From the NCBI RefSeq assembly GCF_024808665.1, contig NZ_JANUBZ010000009.1, positions 186,001 through 250,000 of the forward strand: a stretch of 64,000 bases of DNA, read 5' to 3'. The position numbers and the translations under genes were made by a program. The stretch comes from Mucilaginibacter empetricola (GTDB lineage Bacteria; Bacteroidota; Bacteroidia; Sphingobacteriales; Sphingobacteriaceae). Positions 1 through 10,537 of the stretch are shown here, one piece after another. Below the pieces are notes generated by a model. The model was not told where the DNA came from and ran no database searches. It was given only the letters and a program-made list of their open reading frames with translations. Each line of letters begins with the position of its first letter. Position 1 is the stretch's first letter.

Positions 1-8
1 TCATTTAA

Positions 9-1127
9 ATGAAAAATATAGTACAGGTTAATTCAAAAAAGGAACTTGCTACATTTATTGATTTCCCCCACGAACTTTACAAGAACGATCCGTACTACGT
101 ACCCGAGTTGTTTATTGCCCAAAGGGATTTATTAACAACACACCCATTTCATAAACATTCATCGCTTCAGTGCTTTTTAGCATATGAAGGCGATAAAGTT
201 GTGGGCCGGATAGCAGGTATCTTAAATAACAATCATAATACTTACAATAGCCGCAATGATGGTTTCTGGGGATTTTTTGATTGTATAGATGATCAGGAAA
301 CAGCCGATCTGCTTTTTGCGACTGCTGCCAAATGGGTGAAAGATAAAGGTGTTGATCAAAAATTTATTGGCCCTGTTAACTTTTCAACCAACGAAGCTTG
401 CGGATTATTGGTACAGGGTTTTGATAGCTCACCATTTTTACTGCAAACGTATAATTACCCGTATTATGCCGGTTTAATTGAAAAGGCCGGATTTGCAAAA
501 CAAGTTGACTTAATTGCCTGGCATTGGGTAGGCGCTGGGTATGATGATAAATCAGTTAGGTTATTAAATGCGTTACAGGAGCGCTTAAAACGCAATAATA
601 TCATTATCCGGAAAGTCAATCTGAAAAACTTCAAGGACGAAACAGCCAAGTTAAGAGAGGTTTACAACTCTGCATGGGATCAGAATACCGGCTTTGTACC
701 ATTAACCGATGATGAGTTTGATTACCTGGCCAAAGATCTTAAACTGATACTCGACGCTGATTTTGCATTGGTTGCTGAGCAGAACGGCAAAATAGTAGCC
801 TTTGGATTGGCACTACCCAACTTTAACGAAGTTTTGCAAAAAGTTAAAAAAGGCCGTTTATTGCCAACAGGTATATTTAAAATCCTCTTAAACAAAAGCA
901 AAGTAAAAAGCTTACGTATTTATGCTCTGGGCGTTGTTGATGGCTACCGTAAAATGGGTATAGAAGCCTGTTTGTATGGCACCATTATTAAAGAATATCA
1001 GAAAAAGGGTTATAAACATGCAGAAGCCGGATGGACACTGGAGAACAATACCCTTATCAATGAAGCTATCATAGCTATAAAAGGAGATCCTTATAAAAAA
1101 TACAGGATTTACGAAAAAGCAATATGA
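9..1127 (+). CDS. GNAT-fold acyltransferase, candidate bacterial ceramide synthase
   Basis: This 372-residue protein has two acyltransferase-like halves. The first carries VVGRIAG (64-70) and the family-typical GPVNFSTNEACGLLVQGFD (121-139). The second, after about residue 255, ends in a GNAT-like A-motif region around LGVVDGYRKMGIEA. It is usually annotated as a GNAT or hypothetical protein. I relate it to the acyl-CoA N-acyltransferase called bacterial ceramide synthase in Caulobacter, which would acylate 3-ketosphinganine. That assignment is inferred from resemblance and from the neighbours: it overlaps an NAD-dependent reductase by four bases and leads an inositol-lipid operon. The start lies 8 bases into the window, so its ribosome binding site and any serine palmitoyltransferase upstream are out of view. 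Confidence 0.75.
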   Translation: MKNIVQVNSKKELATFIDFPHELYKNDPYYVPELFIAQRDLLTTHPFHKHSSLQCFLAYEGDKVVGRIAGILNNNHNTYNSRNDGFWGFFDCIDDQETADLLFATAAKWVKDKGVDQKFIGPVNFSTNEACGLLVQGFDSSPFLLQTYNYPYYAGLIEKAGFAKQVDLIAWHWVGAGYDDKSVRLLNALQERLKRNNIIIRKVNLKNFKDETAKLREVYNSAWDQNTGFVPLTDDEFDYLAKDLKLILDADFALVAEQNGKIVAFGLALPNFNEVLQKVKKGRLLPTGIFKILLNKSKVKSLRIYALGVVDGYRKMGIEACLYGTIIKEYQKKGYKHAEAGWTLENNTLINEAIIAIKGDPYKKYRIYEKAI

Positions 1128-2113
1128 AAGAACGGGTTTTAATAACCGGCGCCAGCGGATTTGTAGGATACCATCTGATACAGGAAGCACTTAAGAATAA
1201 CCTGGAAGTTTATGCATCTGTTAGAAAAAGCAGCAAGATAGACCATTTAAAACTCCTGGATATTAAATATACCTATCCTGATTTTAATAATGTTGATTTA
1301 CTGGCAGCCGAGTTTGAAGAAAACCGATATGATTATATTATTCATGCAGCCGGTGTTACCAGGGCTAAATCGGCAGATGAGTATAATCAAATAAATGCCG
1401 GTTATACAAACAATATTGCTCTGGCTCTACTCAAAAACAATCATCCCCTAAAAAAAATAGTACTCATCAGTAGCCTGGCGGCTATCGGCCCACTTAATAC
1501 ACTTGACGGAGTAATCACAGAACATACAACTGCTGCGCCTGTAACAGCTTATGGAAAAAGTAAGTTGTTAGCCGAAAAAAATTTAAAAGCTTATTCGTCG
1601 TTAAATTACAGCATCCTACGACCAACCGGAGTATATGGGCCGAGGGATAAGGATATCTTTATTTTTTTTAAACAGGTGGCAAAAGGTATAGAGCCGTATA
1701 TTGGCAACATGCAGCAAAAATTCAGCTTTATTTATGTTACCGATGTTGCTAAAGCTGCCATTTCAGCATTATATACAAAAGGTTATCAAAAAACTTATAA
1801 CCTTTCTGATGGACGGTATTATGATCGTTACGAATTAGGAAAACTGATAAAAGAAACCTTAAATTTGAAAACTGTAAAGTTTCATTTACCTGTAAACTTT
1901 GTAAAATTTATAGCCATCGTATTAGAAAAATACAGTTCTTTGAAAAACGAAGCCGCTGTATTGAATACTGAAAAGTTAAATGAGTTGATGGCAGTAAACT
2001 GGTATTGCGATATTAGCGAAGCCAGAACCGGTTTGGATTTCGCCCCTGAATATGATCTAAAAGCCGGAGTTTCCGAAACACTTAAATGGTATAAAGCAAA
2101 TAAATGGCTATAA
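1124..2113 (+). CDS. NAD-dependent epimerase/dehydratase, candidate ceramide reductase
   Basis: This is a 329-residue extended short-chain dehydrogenase. The Rossmann motif GASGFVG is at 9-15, catalytic-type serines in ISSLAA at 115-120, and the YxxxK pair in YGKSK at 143-147. The start ATG overlaps the upstream stop (ATGA), so translation is probably coupled. In Caulobacter a protein of this family (CerR) reduces the ketone of the ceramide precursor. The direct fusion of this gene to a ceramide-synthase-like acyltransferase and an inositol-lipid operon makes the same role likely here. Without the context only oxidoreductase or epimerase could be claimed. Confidence 0.8.
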   Translation: MKERVLITGASGFVGYHLIQEALKNNLEVYASVRKSSKIDHLKLLDIKYTYPDFNNVDLLAAEFEENRYDYIIHAAGVTRAKSADEYNQINAGYTNNIALALLKNNHPLKKIVLISSLAAIGPLNTLDGVITEHTTAAPVTAYGKSKLLAEKNLKAYSSLNYSILRPTGVYGPRDKDIFIFFKQVAKGIEPYIGNMQQKFSFIYVTDVAKAAISALYTKGYQKTYNLSDGRYYDRYELGKLIKETLNLKTVKFHLPVNFVKFIAIVLEKYSSLKNEAAVLNTEKLNELMAVNWYCDISEARTGLDFAPEYDLKAGVSETLKWYKANKWL

Positions 2114-2152
2114 GCCATACTAATAATTATATAACGTTATAATAATAAAACA

Positions 2153-3475
2153 ATGAAAACTAATATCAAACCTGCCGATGGCAAACTCGGTATTTTAATT
2201 CCGGGATTAGGTGCTGTGGCAACAACACTTATTGCCGGTGTTGAAGCTGTGAAAAAGGGTATATCACAGCCTATTGGTTCACTTACACAAATGGGAAACA
2301 TCCGTTTAGGTAAAAGAACGGAGAACCGTAACCCGAAAGTTAAAGATTTTGTTCCGCTGGCTGATTTAAATGATATAGTTTTTGGTGGATGGGATGTGTA
2401 CTCTGATAACGTATACGAAGCAGCAATGAAAGCTAAAGTGCTTGAACCAGGGTTACTAAATTCAGTTAAAGCTGAATTGGAAGTAGTAGTGCCGATGAAA
2501 GCTGCTTTTGATAGCAACTACGCTAAAAATCTTACTGCAACTCACGTTAAAACCGGTACAAGATATGAGCTTGCACAGGAGGTAATGAATGATATTGAGC
2601 GCTTTAAAGAAAAAAATGGTTGCAGCCGTATAGTATTAATATGGTGCGGATCGACCGAAATTTACTACGAAGCTACTGAGATTCATAATAGCCTTGCCAA
2701 ATTTGAACAAGCGTTAATTGATGATGACAAACGTATATCGCCAAGTATGATATATGCTTATGCCGCCTTAAAACTGGGAATCCCGTTTGCAAATGGCGCG
2801 CCTAACTTAACTGTTGATATTCCGGCTATGATTGAGCTGGCTAAATTAACAGAAACTCCAATTGCCGGAAAAGATTTCAAAACGGGTCAAACCTTAATGA
2901 AAACTATTTTGGCTCCGGGTCTTGCTGCACGTTCATTAGGTGTAAGCGGATGGTTCTCGACCAATATATTAGGTAACCGCGATGGTTTAGTACTAGATGA
3001 TCCGGATAACTTTAAAACCAAAGAAGTTTCAAAACTTGGTGTATTGGAAGATATCTTAAAACCAGAAGCAAATCCGGAATTATACGGGAATCTATACCAT
3101 AAAATCCGTATCGATTACTACCCTCCGCATGGCGACAACAAAGAAAGCTGGGACAATATTGACATTTTTGGCTGGTTAGGCTATAAAATGCAAATTAAGA
3201 TCAATTTCCTTTGCCGCGATTCAATTTTGGCAGCGCCAATTGCATTGGATTTAGCTTTATTTAGCGATTTGGCAAAAAGAGCTAACCTGAGTGGTATACA
3301 AGAATGGTTGTCATTCTACCTTAAATCACCACAAACGGCTGAAGGTTTGCCACCAGAAAATGATATTTTTAAACAGTTAATAAAATTACAAAACACACTA
3401 CGCCATTTAATGGGCGAAGATCTGATCACTCACCTGGGCTTAGATTATTACCAGGAGTTGGTTGATTCTCTGTAA
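2153..3475 (+). CDS. myo-inositol-1-phosphate synthase
   Basis: This 440-residue protein converts glucose-6-phosphate to inositol-3-phosphate with NAD as internal cofactor. An N-terminal nucleotide-binding GLGAVATTL lies at 18-26. The C-terminal half carries the family block SWDNIDIFGWLGYKMQIKIN followed by FLCRDSILAAPIALDLA. Length fits the shorter bacterial and archaeal type. It starts 39 bases after the epimerase and shares one base with the next gene. It supplies the inositol head group for the lipid enzymes downstream. The gap before it contains a 12-base palindrome (2130-2141) of unknown meaning. Confidence 0.93.
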   Translation: MKTNIKPADGKLGILIPGLGAVATTLIAGVEAVKKGISQPIGSLTQMGNIRLGKRTENRNPKVKDFVPLADLNDIVFGGWDVYSDNVYEAAMKAKVLEPGLLNSVKAELEVVVPMKAAFDSNYAKNLTATHVKTGTRYELAQEVMNDIERFKEKNGCSRIVLIWCGSTEIYYEATEIHNSLAKFEQALIDDDKRISPSMIYAYAALKLGIPFANGAPNLTVDIPAMIELAKLTETPIAGKDFKTGQTLMKTILAPGLAARSLGVSGWFSTNILGNRDGLVLDDPDNFKTKEVSKLGVLEDILKPEANPELYGNLYHKIRIDYYPPHGDNKESWDNIDIFGWLGYKMQIKINFLCRDSILAAPIALDLALFSDLAKRANLSGIQEWLSFYLKSPQTAEGLPPENDIFKQLIKLQNTLRHLMGEDLITHLGLDYYQELVDSL

Positions 3476-3927
3476 TGAGTTTTCATAAACTATTTTCCAC
3501 CAGCCTGGGTATAGGCTATATAAAAGGCGGCGGTACTTTTGCAGCAATATTTTGCTGCATTTGCTGGTATCTGGCCTGGGCTGGTGGTTATCCTCCCTTA
3601 TTACTTTCTCTTCTAATTACCCTTATCATAACTTTGGCAGGCGTGTGGTCATCATCCGTTGTCGAAAAAATATGGGGTAAAGATCCATCGCGGGTGGTTA
3701 TTGACGAGGTAGCTGGCATGTGCATCGGTTTACTTTTTATACCTGTTAATGTAACATATTTGTTATGTGCCCTGGTGTTGTTTCGGTTTTTTGATATTGG
3801 GAAGCCCTTATTCATCAAAAAAATGGAACATTTACCATCTGGCTGGGGTATAATGATGGATGATGTTTTAGCTGGCATTTATACTAATATTATCGTTAAT
3901 GCCGTTGTATGGTTTAAATTATTTTAA
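3475..3927 (+). CDS. phosphatidylglycerophosphatase A family protein
   Basis: This 150-residue integral membrane protein of the PgpA family has three to four hydrophobic segments. The signature VVIDEVAGMCIGLLFIP lies near residues 75-92 and MMDDVLAGIYTN near 124-135. PgpA removes phosphate from phosphatidylglycerophosphate. Next to inositol-phosphate synthase and a CDP-alcohol phosphotransferase, the better guess is removal of phosphate from phosphatidylinositol-phosphate, as described for the PgpA-like enzyme of the Bacteroides thetaiotaomicron inositol-lipid locus. The ATG shares its first base with the preceding TAA stop, so the two are co-translated. Family call is firm; substrate is inferred. 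Confidence 0.88.
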   Translation: MSFHKLFSTSLGIGYIKGGGTFAAIFCCICWYLAWAGGYPPLLLSLLITLIITLAGVWSSSVVEKIWGKDPSRVVIDEVAGMCIGLLFIPVNVTYLLCALVLFRFFDIGKPLFIKKMEHLPSGWGIMMDDVLAGIYTNIIVNAVVWFKLF

Positions 3928-4008
3928 TGTGGATTTGATTAAAAATTATAAGAATCGTAATTATTTACTTTTGACTTTTTGACCACAAAAGTCCGAAGTT
4001 GTTTTCTC

Positions 4009-4016
4009 TACCTTTG
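4009..4016 (+). promoter_or_regulatory. possible Bacteroidota -7 promoter box
   Basis: TACCTTTG matches the TAnnTTTG consensus in the 241-base gap before the DUF5686 gene. It would give a leader of about 150 bases. No convincing -33 TTG is seen at the expected distance. It may be an internal operon promoter. Confidence 0.35.
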
Positions 4017-4168
4017 CGGCTTATCCGGTATTGCGCCCCCAATGCCTTTGGCTTTGTTCAGGTTTGAAAATAGCCCGTGTTAATCACGCAAACAAAAAAC
4101 AATGCTCAATCATTAACTAATTAGATTTCGTACATCAATAAAAATCGGGTTGTATTTGCACAAATTAC

Positions 4169-6727
4169 ATGGACTTTAAATATTTACACAAGAAGTTATA
4201 TAATATAATACTTTTTTTATTCTGTACCACTCCCATTTTTGCACAAACTACCATTGTTTCGGGTACTGTTGTAGATGCATCAAATAAAAAGCCACTACCT
4301 TTTGTAGCGGTTTCATTTCCAGGTACAACTATCGGCGTTAATACTGATAACCAGGGTAAATACAGCATTCAGTCAGATAAGCCTGTTACTAAAATTAAAG
4401 CTTCTTTTTTGGGTTACAAGGATGCTGTTTTTACAGTTGTTACAGGTAAAGAGCAGGAGATAAACATACGCATGTTGACGTCTGCGTCTCAATTGCAGGA
4501 AGTTGTTGTAAAATCAGGCAAAAAGCCTAAATATCGTAACAAGGATAACCCCGCTGTTGAATTGATCAGAAAAGTTATTGAAAACAAGGAGAAAAACAGA
4601 CCCACAAGTTATAACTATGTTGAGTATAAGGAATATGATAAAATGCAGTTCTCTTTGGCCAACGTTAAAAAAGATGCTGCTTCAAAACCCGGCTTAAGAA
4701 AATATGCATTTGTTTTAGATAATCGCGACAGCACAACTATTCCGGGTAAATCACTGTTACCAATTTTCTTAGACGAAAAGTTATCACAATATTATTACCG
4801 GAAAGATCCCGAAAAGGAAAAAACGACTACGCTGGGACAAAAAACAGTAAATTTTGGCGGCGCAATTGATAATGAAGGCTTAACAGTTTACTTTAAGCAC
4901 ATGTATTATAAGGTCGACATTTATTCGAATGTTGTATTCCTGATGACTACTAACTTTTTAAGTCCGATAGCTAACTCTGCTCCTACTTTTTATAAATTTT
5001 TTATAACCGATACAGTTGTTGTAAATAACCAAAAGCTGGTTGAATTAAGCTTTACACCACGCAACACTACAGATGTTTTGTTTGTTGGTAAGATATATAT
5101 AACGTTAGATGGCAACTATGCCGTACAAAAAGCAGACCTGACGATCAACAAAAACATCAACCTCAACTTTGTAAACACCATGAGTGTTAACCTGGAGTTT
5201 GAGCAAAACCCCGATGGTCGTTACCACTTGAGTAAAAGTACAACCATTGCAGACTTTGGTATAAGCCGAAATAAGCCTGGTGGCCTATTCGGTATAAGGG
5301 AAATAGTTTATAAAAATTATGTTGTAAATCAGGCCCGCCCCGATTCGACATATAAAAACCAGGAAGATGCAGTGCCAGAAGCTGCGAAGAACAGAAGTGA
5401 TCAGTTTTGGTTGCAAAATCGATTGGATACTTTAACTACTGCCGAATCAAAAGTTTATAAAAATACAGATAGCTTAAGGAACATGCCATCCTTTAGGCGA
5501 ACCCTTGATATAGCTACGCTATTATTAGCCGGATATAAAGATGAGAAATGGTGGGAAATTGGCCCTGCAAATACCTTTTATAGCTTTAACCCTATTGAAG
5601 GTTTAAAATTGCGGTTTGGTGGCCGTACCACTCCCGAATTAAGCAAACGCTATTACTTTGAAACTTATGCAGCTTACGGCTTTAAAGATGAGAAATGGAA
5701 AGGCTTTTTAAGTGCTACTTATTCCCTAAATGATAAATCTATTTACAAATTTCCGCAAAACTACATAAGGGTAAGTGCGCAATATGATACGCATATCCCG
5801 GGTGAAAACCTGCAGTTTGTACAGGAAGATAACTTTTTGCTATCATTTAAACGGGGGAATAACGATAAATACATATATGATCTTGCTTACAGATTAGATT
5901 ATGTTCAAGAGTTTGAGAACCATTTTTCATACAGTTTTGGATTAAGCCGTTTAAACCAATCGCCTACAGGGTCGTTATATTTTATTAATGACGATAATAC
6001 TGGGCTGCAACAAGACATTCATAATTTAATTACCACTGATTTCACTGTTGGATTGCGCTATGCACCAAACGAACAGTTTTACCAGGGTAAAATTTATAGA
6101 ATTCCGGTGCCCAGTAAGAATCCAGTGTTTTCAGTGGATTATGATGCCGGTATAAAAGGTGTATTTGATGGTCAGTATAGCTATCAAAAACTCCATGGCC
6201 GTATTGATAAACGTTTTTACCTGTCGCAATTGGGCTGGACCGACGTAACGGTTGAGGGTGGAAAAATATTCGGACAGGTACCTTATCCTCTGCTTAATAT
6301 ATTCCGCGCCAATCAAACCTATGCTTACGATATCTATTCGTACAACTTAATGAACTTTTTGGAGTTTGTGGGCGATCACTATGAAAGCATAGATATAGAT
6401 CAGCACTTTAATGGTTTCTTTTTTAATAAAATACCGTTATTGAAAAAATTGAAGTGGCGTGAAACGGCTTCATTTAAGGCTATTTATGGCGGCGTTAGCA
6501 GTACTAATGATCCATCACTGCATCCATCATTATATCAATACCCTGTAACTTCAACCGGGCAGCCTATTACTTATGCTTTAGGAAAAACACCTTATGTGGA
6601 AGGTAGTGTTGGTATTGAAAACATTTTTAAATTTGTACGTATTGATTTGGTTAAGAGATTTACCTATCTGGATCACCCGGATATCGCAAAATGGGGTATA
6701 CGCACATTAGTTCAGTTCAATTTTTAA
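4169..6727 (+). CDS. DUF5686 outer-membrane protein with carboxypeptidase-regulatory-like domain
   Basis: This 852-residue exported protein has a signal peptide of about 25 residues ending in TPIFAQ. A carboxypeptidase D regulatory-like beta-sandwich covers roughly 27-115 (VSGTVVDASNKKPLPFVAVS). The rest is a long DUF5686 region rich in alternating aromatic residues that ends in VQFNF, as outer-membrane beta barrels do. The family is common in Bacteroidota and its function is unknown to me. Its position inside the inositol-sphingolipid operon suggests a part in placing or moving these lipids at the outer membrane, but that is inference. A separate promoter may lie in the gap before it. Confidence 0.85.
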   Translation: MDFKYLHKKLYNIILFLFCTTPIFAQTTIVSGTVVDASNKKPLPFVAVSFPGTTIGVNTDNQGKYSIQSDKPVTKIKASFLGYKDAVFTVVTGKEQEINIRMLTSASQLQEVVVKSGKKPKYRNKDNPAVELIRKVIENKEKNRPTSYNYVEYKEYDKMQFSLANVKKDAASKPGLRKYAFVLDNRDSTTIPGKSLLPIFLDEKLSQYYYRKDPEKEKTTTLGQKTVNFGGAIDNEGLTVYFKHMYYKVDIYSNVVFLMTTNFLSPIANSAPTFYKFFITDTVVVNNQKLVELSFTPRNTTDVLFVGKIYITLDGNYAVQKADLTINKNINLNFVNTMSVNLEFEQNPDGRYHLSKSTTIADFGISRNKPGGLFGIREIVYKNYVVNQARPDSTYKNQEDAVPEAAKNRSDQFWLQNRLDTLTTAESKVYKNTDSLRNMPSFRRTLDIATLLLAGYKDEKWWEIGPANTFYSFNPIEGLKLRFGGRTTPELSKRYYFETYAAYGFKDEKWKGFLSATYSLNDKSIYKFPQNYIRVSAQYDTHIPGENLQFVQEDNFLLSFKRGNNDKYIYDLAYRLDYVQEFENHFSYSFGLSRLNQSPTGSLYFINDDNTGLQQDIHNLITTDFTVGLRYAPNEQFYQGKIYRIPVPSKNPVFSVDYDAGIKGVFDGQYSYQKLHGRIDKRFYLSQLGWTDVTVEGGKIFGQVPYPLLNIFRANQTYAYDIYSYNLMNFLEFVGDHYESIDIDQHFNGFFFNKIPLLKKLKWRETASFKAIYGGVSSTNDPSLHPSLYQYPVTSTGQPITYALGKTPYVEGSVGIENIFKFVRIDLVKRFTYLDHPDIAKWGIRTLVQFNF

Positions 6728-6741
6728 GATTGCAAACAAAT

Positions 6742-7452
6742 ATGGAACAACAAACGTCCCTTCGTACAAACCTGCAACTGGGCATTTACAAAGTAATTGA
6801 TCCGGTAGTAAAGGTTTTCATAAAATTGGGATTAACACCAAACGCTGTTACCTCTATTGGTTTCGCCTTAAATGTTGGTGTTGCTGTAATATTTATCTTC
6901 GGGGCTGAAGAAGGAAATCGCGGCGATTTAAGTTATGTTGGCTGGGCAGGCGGCTTAATTCTTTTTGCCGGCTTGTTTGATATGCTCGATGGTCAGGTTG
7001 CCAGGCTTGGTAACATGAAGTCTACCTTTGGAGCACTTTATGATTCAGTTCTTGATCGTTACAGCGAGTTGATCATGTTTTTAGGGATTTGCTATTACCT
7101 TGTTGGGCATCATTACTTTTTAAGCTCATTATTTGCATTTGTAGCTCTTATAGGGTCAATGATGGTTAGTTATGTGCGGGCACGTGCAGAGGGCCTGGGT
7201 ATTGAATGTAAAGGCGGTTTAATGCAACGGCCAGAACGGGTAGTTACAATTGGCTTGTGTGCTGTTTTATGCGGAATAACATCATTATATATTGGCGGCG
7301 ATTATAAAATTTATTTTCCTGGAACAAAGTTTCAAATTTTTGAGACCATGTCGATATTTACTATTCCTATTGCGGTATTAGCTGTTCTTACAAATATTAC
7401 AGCATTTAACCGCTTAGTGGACGCAAAGAAAAGCCTAATGGAGCATGAATAG
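6742..7452 (+). CDS. CDP-alcohol phosphatidyltransferase
   Basis: This 236-residue membrane enzyme has the complete family motif: D80, D83-G84, A87-R88, G97, D101 and D105 (DxxDGxxARx8Gx3Dx3D). It joins a CDP-activated diacylglycerol to a polar alcohol. Next to myo-inositol-phosphate synthase and a PgpA-like phosphatase, the likely acceptor is inositol phosphate, making phosphatidylinositol phosphate. I chose the ATG at 6742, 14 bases after the DUF5686 stop. An upstream in-frame ATG at 6691 would overlap that gene and add 17 residues unlike the family. Acceptor specificity cannot be read from sequence. Confidence 0.88.
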   Translation: MEQQTSLRTNLQLGIYKVIDPVVKVFIKLGLTPNAVTSIGFALNVGVAVIFIFGAEEGNRGDLSYVGWAGGLILFAGLFDMLDGQVARLGNMKSTFGALYDSVLDRYSELIMFLGICYYLVGHHYFLSSLFAFVALIGSMMVSYVRARAEGLGIECKGGLMQRPERVVTIGLCAVLCGITSLYIGGDYKIYFPGTKFQIFETMSIFTIPIAVLAVLTNITAFNRLVDAKKSLMEHE

Positions 7453-7633
7453 TCAACTGCGTTGTTCTATTCGCGTTAAATATCATATATTCGCAACAAT
7501 TTAATAATATCTGTTTTATTAAATTATTCTTTATTATAATTGGGTGATGCTTTTGAGGGCTTAAACTTAAAGGATCATCAAAAAACGTTTTACAGGCAGA
7601 AAAATTATAAAATATTTTAACACCTGAGTAGTT

Positions 7634-8254
7634 ATGAAAAAAAAATACGTTTCAAATTCGCAGGAGTCGGCAAGAATGTTCAAAAGTGATTTTTTGGAGG
7701 GTTTATCCAAAGTTCATTTTACTGTGCCCCTGTACATATTTGTACCTGTTATCGCTTTTTGCATTTATCAGGATTTTGACCTTTCTATTGGAGTGTTAAA
7801 GTTTTTTGAACTGTTTTTCCTGGGGCTTTTTGTATGGACCTTTGTTGAATATATAATGCACCGCTTTGTATTTCATTATGTGCCCGAAGGTAAAGAATGG
7901 GCCATGCGGCTTCATTTTATTTTCCACGGCGTTCATCATGATTATCCAAGTGATGCCAAACGCCTGGTGTTACCGCCTTCTGTTAGCATACCTTTAGCAA
8001 GCGGTTTCTTCTTTTTGTTTAAAGCTATATTGCCCGTAAATAATATATGGGGATTTTTCCCTGGTTTTATATTAGGATATCTGTTTTATGATATATCGCA
8101 CTATGCCATACATCATTTCAATTTTAAAGGCAACATCTGGAAAAAAATAAAACAACATCATATGCTGCATCACTACCAGGATCCCGACAAAGGGTATGGC
8201 GTGAGCTCTCCGCTTTGGGATAAGATTTTCCGTTCAGATTTTTTAAAGAAATAG
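7634..8254 (+). CDS. fatty acid hydroxylase superfamily (sterol desaturase-like) protein
   Basis: This 206-residue integral membrane diiron enzyme has clustered histidines: H76 and H81, then H94, H98, H101 and H102, then H156, H160 and H161, then H175, H176, H179 and H180. Hydrophobic segments lie near 30-70 and 115-155. Architecture and size resemble the catalytic part of yeast Scs7 and human FA2H, which 2-hydroxylate the N-acyl chain of ceramide. In this operon, hydroxylation of a ceramide acyl or long-chain-base chain is the likely role. Its stop is one base from the next start. A 181-base gap precedes it with no clear promoter. Confidence 0.85.
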   Translation: MKKKYVSNSQESARMFKSDFLEGLSKVHFTVPLYIFVPVIAFCIYQDFDLSIGVLKFFELFFLGLFVWTFVEYIMHRFVFHYVPEGKEWAMRLHFIFHGVHHDYPSDAKRLVLPPSVSIPLASGFFFLFKAILPVNNIWGFFPGFILGYLFYDISHYAIHHFNFKGNIWKKIKQHHMLHHYQDPDKGYGVSSPLWDKIFRSDFLKK

Positions 8255-8255
8255 C

Positions 8256-9194
8256 ATGACGAATGCTGCGGGTGATGGCGCAAAGGTAACTTTGCGGTCG
8301 GCGTTTATTGTTTTTTTAATATCATTAGCTTATTTGCTGCTTTCGTGGAAGCTGGTTGGTTATAAATCCGATCAATTAGTATTGATTGGAATATTTAACA
8401 CCCTGTATTTCCTATCCTCTATTACCCGAAAATTTATTACTGGCTTTGCCATATTTATAGTTTACTGGATCATATTTGATTATATGAAAGCCTTCCCGAA
8501 CTATAATTACAATACTGTTCATATTGCTGATTTATATAACCTGGAAAAAAAGGTATTCGGGATAAATTTTAACGGCAAGCTGTTAACACCTAATGAATAC
8601 TGGCGATTAAACGGCAATACCTTTTTAGATGTAACAGCGGGTATTTTTTACCTCTGCTGGATTCCGGTTCCATTGGCTTTTGCTGCTTTTCTTTTTTTCA
8701 AAAACAGACGCCAGTTCCTTTATTTTTCATTGACATTTGTTTTAATAAACATTATAGGTTTTGTTATTTATTACCTGTACCCTGCTGCACCACCCTGGTA
8801 TGTTGAATATCATGGTTTTACATTTTATGCAAATACACCGGGCAATACTGCGGGGCTTGCCAAATTTGATCAATATTTTAACGCTGGTATATTTAAATCT
8901 ATCTATGCCAAAGGATCAAATGTTTTTGCTGCTATGCCTTCGCTGCATTCATCCTACCCGGTTGTGGTTTTGTATTATGGTATTAAAAATCGGTTGGGTG
9001 TTATAAATGTCTTTTTTGCAACCGTGATGCTAGGCATATGGTTTACAGCTGTTTACGCAAGTCATCATTACATTATGGATGTTATGGCAGGTATCATATG
9101 CGCTGTTATTGGCATAAGCTTGTTTAACTTGTTCTTAAAAAAGAGCAGTTCATTCAATAGCTTCCTAAACCGGTACGAAAAAGTAATTCGTTAA
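8256..9194 (+). CDS. PAP2/Aur1-like inositolphosphotransferase, candidate inositol phosphorylceramide synthase
   Basis: This 312-residue protein has about six membrane segments. The Aur1-like block YPAAPPWY is at 175-182, the PAP2-type MPSLHSS at 227-233 and the catalytic pair SHHYIMD at 269-275. Fungal Aur1 uses this histidine-aspartate chemistry to move inositol phosphate from phosphatidylinositol to ceramide, and a homologue is part of the Bacteroides inositol-lipid locus. As the last gene of the operon it would complete inositol phosphorylceramide. A simple lipid phosphatase is the alternative; the APPWY block and the context favour the transferase. Confidence 0.8.
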   Translation: MTNAAGDGAKVTLRSAFIVFLISLAYLLLSWKLVGYKSDQLVLIGIFNTLYFLSSITRKFITGFAIFIVYWIIFDYMKAFPNYNYNTVHIADLYNLEKKVFGINFNGKLLTPNEYWRLNGNTFLDVTAGIFYLCWIPVPLAFAAFLFFKNRRQFLYFSLTFVLINIIGFVIYYLYPAAPPWYVEYHGFTFYANTPGNTAGLAKFDQYFNAGIFKSIYAKGSNVFAAMPSLHSSYPVVVLYYGIKNRLGVINVFFATVMLGIWFTAVYASHHYIMDVMAGIICAVIGISLFNLFLKKSSSFNSFLNRYEKVIR

Positions 9195-9436: not shown

Positions 9437-10537
9437 ATGAAGTTTGCCTGTACTCTTTTTATAGCTCTGTTTGCCGTTTTAAAGTTATCAGCTAATAACC
9501 ACGCTCCTGATACCATAAAGGCCGTGGCATATTCGCATCAGGCAGATAGTTTAAGGGTGTTGCAGGCAGAAAAAAATAATGAAGGTTATAAATTTTCCTC
9601 CTCAGCCAATCACTCTTATAGCGTAAGACTTCTCGCATTTAATAACTTACCCGACAGTTTAAAGTTTACAGACAATAAAAAACTGTTTGTAATGGCCGAT
9701 AGTAAACAGCCTGATAGTATCGGCGCTATGTTGGTTTTAAGCCATGCCGATAGCCTTAAAATAAGACAGGCAGATAGCCTAAGATTGGTTGAAGCCGCTC
9801 ATATCGACAGCGTTAAACAGGAACTTAAAGGCCTGGGCGTTGATAAGCTTATACAACAGCTTCAAACAAATAAATACGAATTATTAAAAGGGCCTATTTA
9901 TTCGGCTATTGCTTCAAGATATTTAAATTACGATACGCTGAGTAATAAAAAACAGATAGCGTCTTATCAATCAGAAGCTATAAATTATACCATGTTGGCC
10001 TTACATCAATATTCTATGTATGATGATACTTTAGGATTGAGAGCCTGTTTTGACAATTTGACAAAAGTATATTTCGCTCAAAAAAAATACACGCAGGCTA
10101 AATGGTTTGTATTGCAATCCAATAACTTATCACGGTTAAAAAATGATGTACCGAATATAATTACCTCCCTGTTGACATTATCAGCCATAAAGAGTGCAAT
10201 TGAGGATTACACCCTTGCCATGAGCGATTTAAATGAAGCACTGCAGTTGTCTGTGAGCCATCATTATCCAAAAATGCAATCAGAAGTATTGAGAAATTAT
10301 GCGCTGTTATATAATCGACTTAAAGACTATCCCAAAGAGGCTGCCGTATTAAAAAAGCGGGATCTTTTGAATGATAGTATCCGCAGAGACGAGCATACAA
10401 AGTATTTAACCGCTTTAAATGCTCAGGCGCTTATTCAAAAGAAAAAACTTGATTCACTCCAGAAAAAAAAAGTTTATACCTACAATATTCGGAAGCCTTA
10501 CAAAAACAGCTCATCCAAAAAAACAGTCTCATTGTAG
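9437..10537 (+). CDS. exported TPR-like protein, apparently frameshifted near its C terminus
   Basis: The zero frame gives 366 residues. There is a signal peptide (about 1-19), a low-complexity stretch with repeated ADSL words, and helical repeats from about 140 to 330 that look like tetratricopeptide repeats. The arrangement resembles the sensory half of Bacteroidota TPR-containing histidine kinases or LuxR regulators. After nine A residues (10463-10471) the zero frame ends in a basic tail unlike the family. The -1 frame continues as a coiled coil, a transmembrane helix and an RRRK stop-transfer tail ending at 10608, giving 390 residues. No kinase or DNA-binding output follows, so this is a stand-alone anchor protein, a remnant, or a slippage product. 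Confidence 0.7.
   Translation: MKFACTLFIALFAVLKLSANNHAPDTIKAVAYSHQADSLRVLQAEKNNEGYKFSSSANHSYSVRLLAFNNLPDSLKFTDNKKLFVMADSKQPDSIGAMLVLSHADSLKIRQADSLRLVEAAHIDSVKQELKGLGVDKLIQQLQTNKYELLKGPIYSAIASRYLNYDTLSNKKQIASYQSEAINYTMLALHQYSMYDDTLGLRACFDNLTKVYFAQKKYTQAKWFVLQSNNLSRLKNDVPNIITSLLTLSAIKSAIEDYTLAMSDLNEALQLSVSHHYPKMQSEVLRNYALLYNRLKDYPKEAAVLKKRDLLNDSIRRDEHTKYLTALNAQALIQKKKLDSLQKKKVYTYNIRKPYKNSSSKKTVSL

Follow-up and report, generated by a model that had tools for sequence, protein, structure and literature searches.

A Mucilaginibacter gene cluster predicted to make inositol phosphorylceramide from serine and acyl-CoA

The window analysed here is a stretch of 64,000 nt of Mucilaginibacter DNA, at positions 186001-250000 of contig C9. 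It begins with a run of eight same-strand genes, and together with a serine palmitoyltransferase (SPT) gene directly upstream they very likely encode a complete de novo enzymatic pathway for inositol phosphorylceramide (IPC). The upstream SPT means that the predicted pathway covers the whole route from serine and acyl-CoA to (hydroxy)ceramide phosphoinositol. By analogy with characterised relatives, we propose the following reactions. SPT would make 3-ketosphinganine, a bacterial ceramide synthase (bCerS) would N-acylate it, and a CerR-like reductase would reduce the resulting keto-ceramide. An Scs7-like di-metal enzyme (FAH) would use O2 to hydroxylate the N-acyl chain, most likely at C-2; this site and the order of the reactions are conjectural. 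In the inositol half, myo-inositol-phosphate synthase (MIPS) would convert glucose-6-phosphate to inositol phosphate, phosphatidylinositol phosphate (PIP) synthase (PIPS) would join the latter to CDP-diacylglycerol, and a PgpA-type phosphatase would dephosphorylate PIP to phosphatidylinositol (PI). Finally, an Aur1-like PAP2 enzyme (AUR) would move phosphoinositol from PI onto (hydroxy)ceramide. The remaining gene encodes a DUF5686 protein, a predicted outer-membrane Omp85-like barrel, which we conjecture may act after synthesis, helping inositol lipids to reach or cross the outer membrane.

Organisation of the locus

With SPT counted in, the locus has nine genes, all on the + strand; coordinates are those of the window unless prefixed L002, in which L002:10001 is window base 1. 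The SPT gene (403 aa; L002:8681-9892) ends 116 nt before the ceramide synthase gene, and the final 8 nt of this spacer are window positions 1-8. The window ORFs encode the putative bCerS, a GNAT acyltransferase of the bCerS/YghO type (9-1127, 372 aa); the CerR-like ceramide reductase, an extended short-chain dehydrogenase/reductase (SDR) whose gene overlaps the preceding one by 4 nt (1124-2113, 329 aa); MIPS (2153-3475, 440 aa); the BT_1525-like PgpA-type phosphatase (3475-3927, 150 aa); the DUF5686 protein (4169-6727, 852 aa); PIPS, the BT_1523 equivalog (6691-7452); the Scs7/FA2H-like hydroxylase (7634-8254, 206 aa); and the Aur1-like IPC synthase (8256-9194, 312 aa). The original prediction had named these eight families, and the ORF list, Pfam and NCBIfam agree with it. 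It had also pointed upstream for an SPT, which is present there on the same strand, and had proposed that a ceramide half, an inositol head-group half and a hydroxylase adjoin; they do, in one same-strand run.

The description of the array as tight is correct within three blocks (9-3927, 4169-7452 and 7634-9194), where neighbouring genes overlap or are 1-39 nt apart, and fails across two wider gaps: 241 nt between PgpA and DUF5686 (3928-4168), and 181 nt between PIPS and the hydroxylase (7453-7633). Because of these gaps, the array is only partly tight, and we infer a single transcript for the locus as a conjecture. Neither spacer holds a + strand ORF of at least 60 aa. In many relatives, the first position is taken by a GtrA gene (BT_1524 type; PF04138), following PgpA, and the second by a DUF4833 protein (PF16117), following PIPS and either separate or, often, fused to the PIPS C-terminus; both are absent from the gene array of the window.

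The ceramide genes

The SPT protein scores 633 bits against the SPT structures 8guh and 3a2b (Sphingobacterium multivorum-type), whereas the next alpha-oxoamine synthase type reaches 278.5 bits; it is thus nearest to SPT, and not to KBL, AONS or CFAT. bCerS carries PF00583 (Pfam), and its homologues lie near SPT-like genes in independent bacterial lineages, as do CerR-like genes. A tblastn search against plasmids gave 44 records with a homologue, from which six were hand-picked and inspected. An SPT-like aminotransferase lies near the homologue in five of them (Sphingomonas, Roseomonas, E. coli, Rubrobacter and Aureispira), where the homologues are full-length and 31-38% identical to the window protein; none is present within the inspected stretch around the homologue in the sixth, a Bacteroides finegoldii plasmid record. 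The Rubrobacter record also shares the window order of aminotransferase, GNAT and reductase. CerR is an SDR of the epimerase/3Beta_HSD type (Pfam), 23-26% identical to the reductases of three SPT-bearing plasmid records and 33-36% to four Bacteroidales copies. The tested Caulobacter/B. fragilis proteins are named CCNA_01212/BF9343_4218 for the ceramide synthase and CCNA_01222/BF9343_4240 for CerR in PMC10865984, and PMC11087976 describes Spt and bCerS of Caulobacter as cytoplasmic and CerR as periplasmic.

The E. coli PN43 plasmid record (L177) carries yghO, a ceramide synthase homologue, near an alpha-oxoamine-type aminotransferase, ACP, an epimerase, a fatty acyl-AMP ligase and lptFG; this gene set looks like a sphingolipid-type cluster.

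The inositol head-group genes

The best PDB match of MIPS, which carries PF07994 and PF01658 (Pfam), is 7nwr at 561 bits; according to its authors, 7NWR is BT_1526 (PMC9246714). PIPS, a CDP-alcohol transferase, passes the NCBIfam model of the BT_1523 equivalog (401.5 bits, cut-off 350). Its sequence DMLDGQVAR...GALYDSVLD matches the catalytic motif given in PMC9246714, DX2DGX2AR..GX3DX3D, which is present in 141/141 PIPS ORFs counted. The Aur1-like protein belongs to PAP2_3 (Pfam), and AUR1 is its sole PDB sequence match at E <= 0.001 (2.8e-15). It contains PSLH and SHHYxxD motifs. The PSLH-type motif occurs in all 133 AUR ORFs counted, and the strict pattern of the second motif in 120 of the 133; the other 13 have HH(Y/F)xxD with a different residue before or after.

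The phosphatase matches PF04608 (Pfam, 1.8e-38), and its substrate is assigned by family; BT_1525, also of the PgpA family, is described as the PIP phosphatase (PMC9246714). We searched 25 Mucilaginibacter genomes, including the window's own, for PF04608, the sample being chosen so that 21 lack PgpA in the slot. Each has exactly one copy, located by coordinates in the cluster in four genomes (the own genome G000, G019, G026 and G048) and elsewhere in 21. The window gene is thus the only PF04608 gene found in its genome. Since there is one copy per genome, the same PgpA enzyme may act on PIP as well as on PG-phosphate.

In B. thetaiotaomicron, knockouts of BT_1522, 1523, 1525 and 1526 are reported to lose PI-dihydroceramide (PMC9246714); in PMC8791184, the BT1523 mutant has no IPC, and the BT1522 and BT1526 mutants have under 1%. 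BT_1524 (GtrA) is described as having no effect on thin-layer chromatography (TLC) in the former study but as lowering IPC when lost in the latter.

Conservation among relatives

With the BT_1523-type PIPS model, 57/100 genomes (own included) score above the cut-off, 54 of which belong to the 60 other genomes of the genus, and so do 25 of 121 genomes drawn from the family and 9 of 296 from the phylum (own included in both). We fully read 39 loci of other Mucilaginibacter species (L033-L070 less the incomplete L036, plus L091 and L092). All 39 keep the order SPT-CerS-...-PIPS-...-FAH-AUR; the gene order is not due to chance. CerR is absent from its slot in 12 of these loci, MIPS in one (L041), DUF5686 in one (L060) and PgpA in 32.

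A second set comprised the best 80 of 566 relatives, ranked by PIPS similarity, of which 59 named loci of at least 19.9 kb were counted and 21 shorter ones dropped. SPT is present in 53 of the 59, CerS in 49, CerR in 45, MIPS in 52, PgpA in 46, DUF5686 in 56, FAH in 50 and AUR in all 59; GtrA is present in 40 and DUF4833 in 46, in 27 as a fusion to PIPS (L095, L099, L108 and L132 are examples of the C-terminal fusion). The 11-gene form with both GtrA and DUF4833 is found in 16, including Pedobacter rhizosphaerae (L108), Chryseolinea lacunae (L149) and Chryseosolibacter histidini (L158). The arrangement is widespread in relatives. These loci are exceptions to a statement in PMC11334938: in general, spt, bcerS and cerR frequently form a cluster, but in Bacteroidota, according to its reference 38, they are not found near one another.

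Outside the operon, the own genome has one DUF4833 copy, apparently interrupted (L093:1325-1860, contig C24), and none was found in six congeners without a slot copy. By eye, the stand-alone DUF4833 protein starts with a signal-like stretch, and the PIPS fusion retains a hydrophobic stretch at the joint; both fit a periplasmic position, and DUF4833 is probably a periplasmic domain.

On the flanks of the locus, the divergent genes upstream of SPT resemble an efflux system by eye. The gene after the cluster (9437-10537) has a weak TPR match, and genes related to it at 33-72% identity come after the cluster in 38 of the 39 fully read Mucilaginibacter loci.

The DUF5686 protein

The DUF5686 protein has a signal-like N-terminus (by eye), a CarbopepD_reg-like domain, a beta-rich middle and a predicted Omp85-like barrel at about residues 460-851. 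Its predicted model resembles the BamA/Sam50-like barrel fold (pLDDT 79.4, pTM 0.67), at about 10% identity to Omp85 structures and with whole-chain TM-scores of 0.28-0.30. On the question of POTRA domains, the whole protein has Pfam matches to CarbopepD_reg-type and DUF5686 only. A VRGF-type motif in the barrel is a trait of the Omp85 superfamily; a simple pattern for it matches one of 37 DUF5686 rows, and this match (residue 146) does not lie in the barrel. As there is no consistent motif of this type, we call the protein Omp85-like and not a member of Omp85.

We consider three possibilities for its role. First, there is about an even chance that it serves outer-membrane assembly in general or is some unrelated barrel, and that only co-expression accounts for its position in the cluster. 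BamA and Sam50, the Omp85 proteins that it matches, insert proteins. Three further DUF5686 copies exist in the own genome (L192, L193 and L194), with none of the families of this cluster among their neighbours (10 of 25 ORFs scanned), and two of the three branch within the operon-copy group of the tree. In the same tree, Bacteroidales copies, linked or unlinked, are intermixed, and four of nine placed copies from plasmid records have no inositol genes nearby. Against this first possibility, DUF5686 is retained in the great majority of the named full-length clusters (56/59), including most of those without the sphingolipid half. It also adjoins MIPS in the chemically different NTP-transferase/HAD inositol cluster of the B. 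finegoldii and Prevotella nigrescens records, and thus neighbours the inositol genes of both head-group routes.

Second, this repeated company with inositol genes makes the protein a candidate lipid exporter, and we tentatively propose that it may carry inositol lipids as far as the outer membrane or through it. PMC11087976 states that no flippase or transporter has been identified for bacterial sphingolipids reaching the outer membrane. Third, in a stronger form that we consider rather doubtful, inserting or flipping inositol lipids would be the dedicated task of DUF5686, as an outer-membrane translocase of the Omp85 type; DUF4833, probably periplasmic and in many relatives fused to PIPS, would couple synthesis to export. 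Our literature search found no paper on DUF5686 or DUF4833.

The hydroxylase

PF04116 (FA_hydroxylase) is the only Pfam match in the 206 aa of the hydroxylase, and SCS7 accounts for its only PDB matches at E <= 1 (1.5e-30), over a 189-residue alignment in which the His boxes and flanking blocks agree. All four His boxes are present in each of the 116 FAH ORFs counted, among which one genome may appear twice, as a region and as a named locus. No cytochrome b5 domain was found in the protein (Pfam); thus, it is filed as Scs7-like and not as an SCS7 orthologue, and it would need an outside electron donor as well as O2.

PF04116 is a broad hydroxylase family. The lack of a cytochrome b5 domain, and a PDB search that covers only hydroxylase types with a matched structure and listed SCS7 alone, leave room for another target: the sphingoid base (at C-4, SUR2-like, giving phytoceramide), free fatty acids or the acyl chains of PI. 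We consider this unlikely, given the length and strength of the SCS7 alignment with its matching His boxes. Furthermore, among the 59 named full-length loci, both SPT and hydroxylase occur in 50, SPT only in three, neither in six and hydroxylase only in none; the hydroxylase is never seen without SPT. Functional FA2H-like enzymes are also reported in myxobacteria (PMC10002949). C-2 of the N-acyl chain is therefore the preferred site.

The lipid acceptor and the weight of the pathway

Not every cluster of this kind has SPT beside it. In Flavisolibacter (L142), the cluster is short and SPT is elsewhere in the genome. Three Hymenobacter genomes (L132, L160, L161), Spirosoma fluviale (L146) and the metagenome-assembled genome UBA1930 (L112) keep MIPS-PgpA-GtrA-DUF5686-PIPS-DUF4833-AUR, and no SPT at E <= 1e-100 was found in these five genomes; the other three of the eight genomes searched have one. 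The best alpha-oxoamine synthase in the five reaches 8.5e-78 at 37% identity, and an ORF 6 kb from the UBA1930 cluster is a putative SPT by an automatically assigned label. We classified three of the 12 alpha-oxoamine synthase matches from these genomes. A Hymenobacter enzyme (L203) and a Spirosoma enzyme (L202) are nearest to 7u7h, which has a generic synthetase name, and 28eh, a cysteate-C-fatty acyltransferase, at 575-626 bits vs 229-250 for SPT; a second Hymenobacter enzyme (L199) is a 2-amino-3-ketobutyrate ligase. The organisms with these SPT-less clusters may make sulfonolipids instead.

It is conceivable from these genomes, which keep the inositol half and AUR, that the Aur1-like enzyme passes phosphoinositol to an acceptor other than ceramide and that ceramide synthesis merely adjoins. 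This is very improbable for the present locus, whose SPT, CerS and CerR genes share one run; in addition, formation of PI-dihydroceramide depends on the Aur1-like BT_1522 (PMC9246714), and the exceptional genomes possibly have a divergent SPT.

Several points nevertheless weigh against a complete IPC pathway, or against the role proposed for DUF5686, for which the additional copies in the own genome and their position in the tree count in the same direction. Both the lipid product and the expression of the locus are predictions from its genes. The identities of bCerS and CerR are putative, drawn from their families and neighbourhood. CerR was found at E <= 1e-20 in none of the 11 Mucilaginibacter genomes searched out of the 12 without a slot copy (L038, L052, L054, L061, L062, L064, L065, L068, L069, L091 and L092), and the controls, namely the own genome and two CerR-bearing genomes, were all recovered; another reductase may serve in these species. 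Among the 60 other genomes of the genus, the PIPS model has no match in five and matches only in pieces in one. Members of the Aur1-like family with similar scores are found in those Hymenobacter and Spirosoma genomes that lack a close SPT, and family membership alone is therefore no proof of a ceramide acceptor. The Aur1-like protein of the window also misses the curated cut-off of NF052609, the NCBI model for PI-dihydroceramide synthase (338.5 vs 480 bits). So do all ten Aur1-like relatives tested, one of them from a BT-like Prevotella cluster; thus, the cut-off looks narrow.

Significance and comparison with known systems

If the prediction is correct, a single, clonable bacterial locus leads from primary metabolites to an inositol sphingolipid that is probably hydroxylated and much resembles the fungal one. 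The locus also names DUF5686 and DUF4833 as testable partners for sphingolipid transport to the outer membrane. IPC in Sphingobacterium was reportedly described chemically about two decades ago. The locus adds to published surveys, in which the inositol cluster is described as lacking or very rare in Sphingobacterium (PMC9246714) and the ceramide genes as apart in Bacteroidota (PMC11334938).

The BT_1522-1526 inositol lipid operon of B. thetaiotaomicron, as described in PMC9246714 and PMC8791184, has MIPS, the PgpA-type phosphatase, PIPS and the Aur1-like enzyme in common with the window. It has GtrA, as do many relatives of the window cluster, whereas the window's own array does not; the window adds SPT, bCerS, CerR and the Scs7-like hydroxylase in the same run and has DUF5686 inside. 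BT_1527, the carboxypeptidase-regulatory-like neighbour of that operon, fits DUF5686 by description only. The B. thetaiotaomicron SPT is BT0870, distant from BT_1522-1526 by locus number (PMC9246714, PMC8791184), which bears out the expectation of a fuller pathway here than that described for Bacteroides. The alternative inositol cluster of Bacteroidales (PMC9246714) shares MIPS and DUF5686 as neighbours with the window; where it has an NTP transferase, a CDP-alcohol transferase and HAD, the window uses PIPS, PgpA and the Aur1-like enzyme.

Caulobacter-type spt, bcerS and cerR genes (PMC11087976) and the proteobacterial plasmid clusters share SPT, a GNAT-type ceramide synthase and a CerR-like reductase with the window. 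The plasmid clusters have ACP, fatty acyl-AMP ligase and lptFG neighbours, none of which adjoins the ceramide genes here, and unlike in Caulobacter-type clusters, inositol head-group genes come after the ceramide genes. In the yeast IPC pathway, SCS7 and AUR1 are homologous to the hydroxylase and IPC synthase of the window; unlike yeast, the window would make PI via PIP, and it has a GNAT-type ceramide synthase and a hydroxylase without a cytochrome b5 domain. The DUF5686 protein differs from the Omp85 superfamily (BamA, Sam50, TamA) by its CarbopepD_reg-like N-terminal domain, in addition to the low identity and TM-scores and the inconsistent VRGF-type motif. Among the titles listed, our literature search found none on a joined ceramide and inositol cluster. 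The parts are known from these systems; their joining in one cluster appears to be new, and the link to DUF5686 and DUF4833 is the boldest lead.

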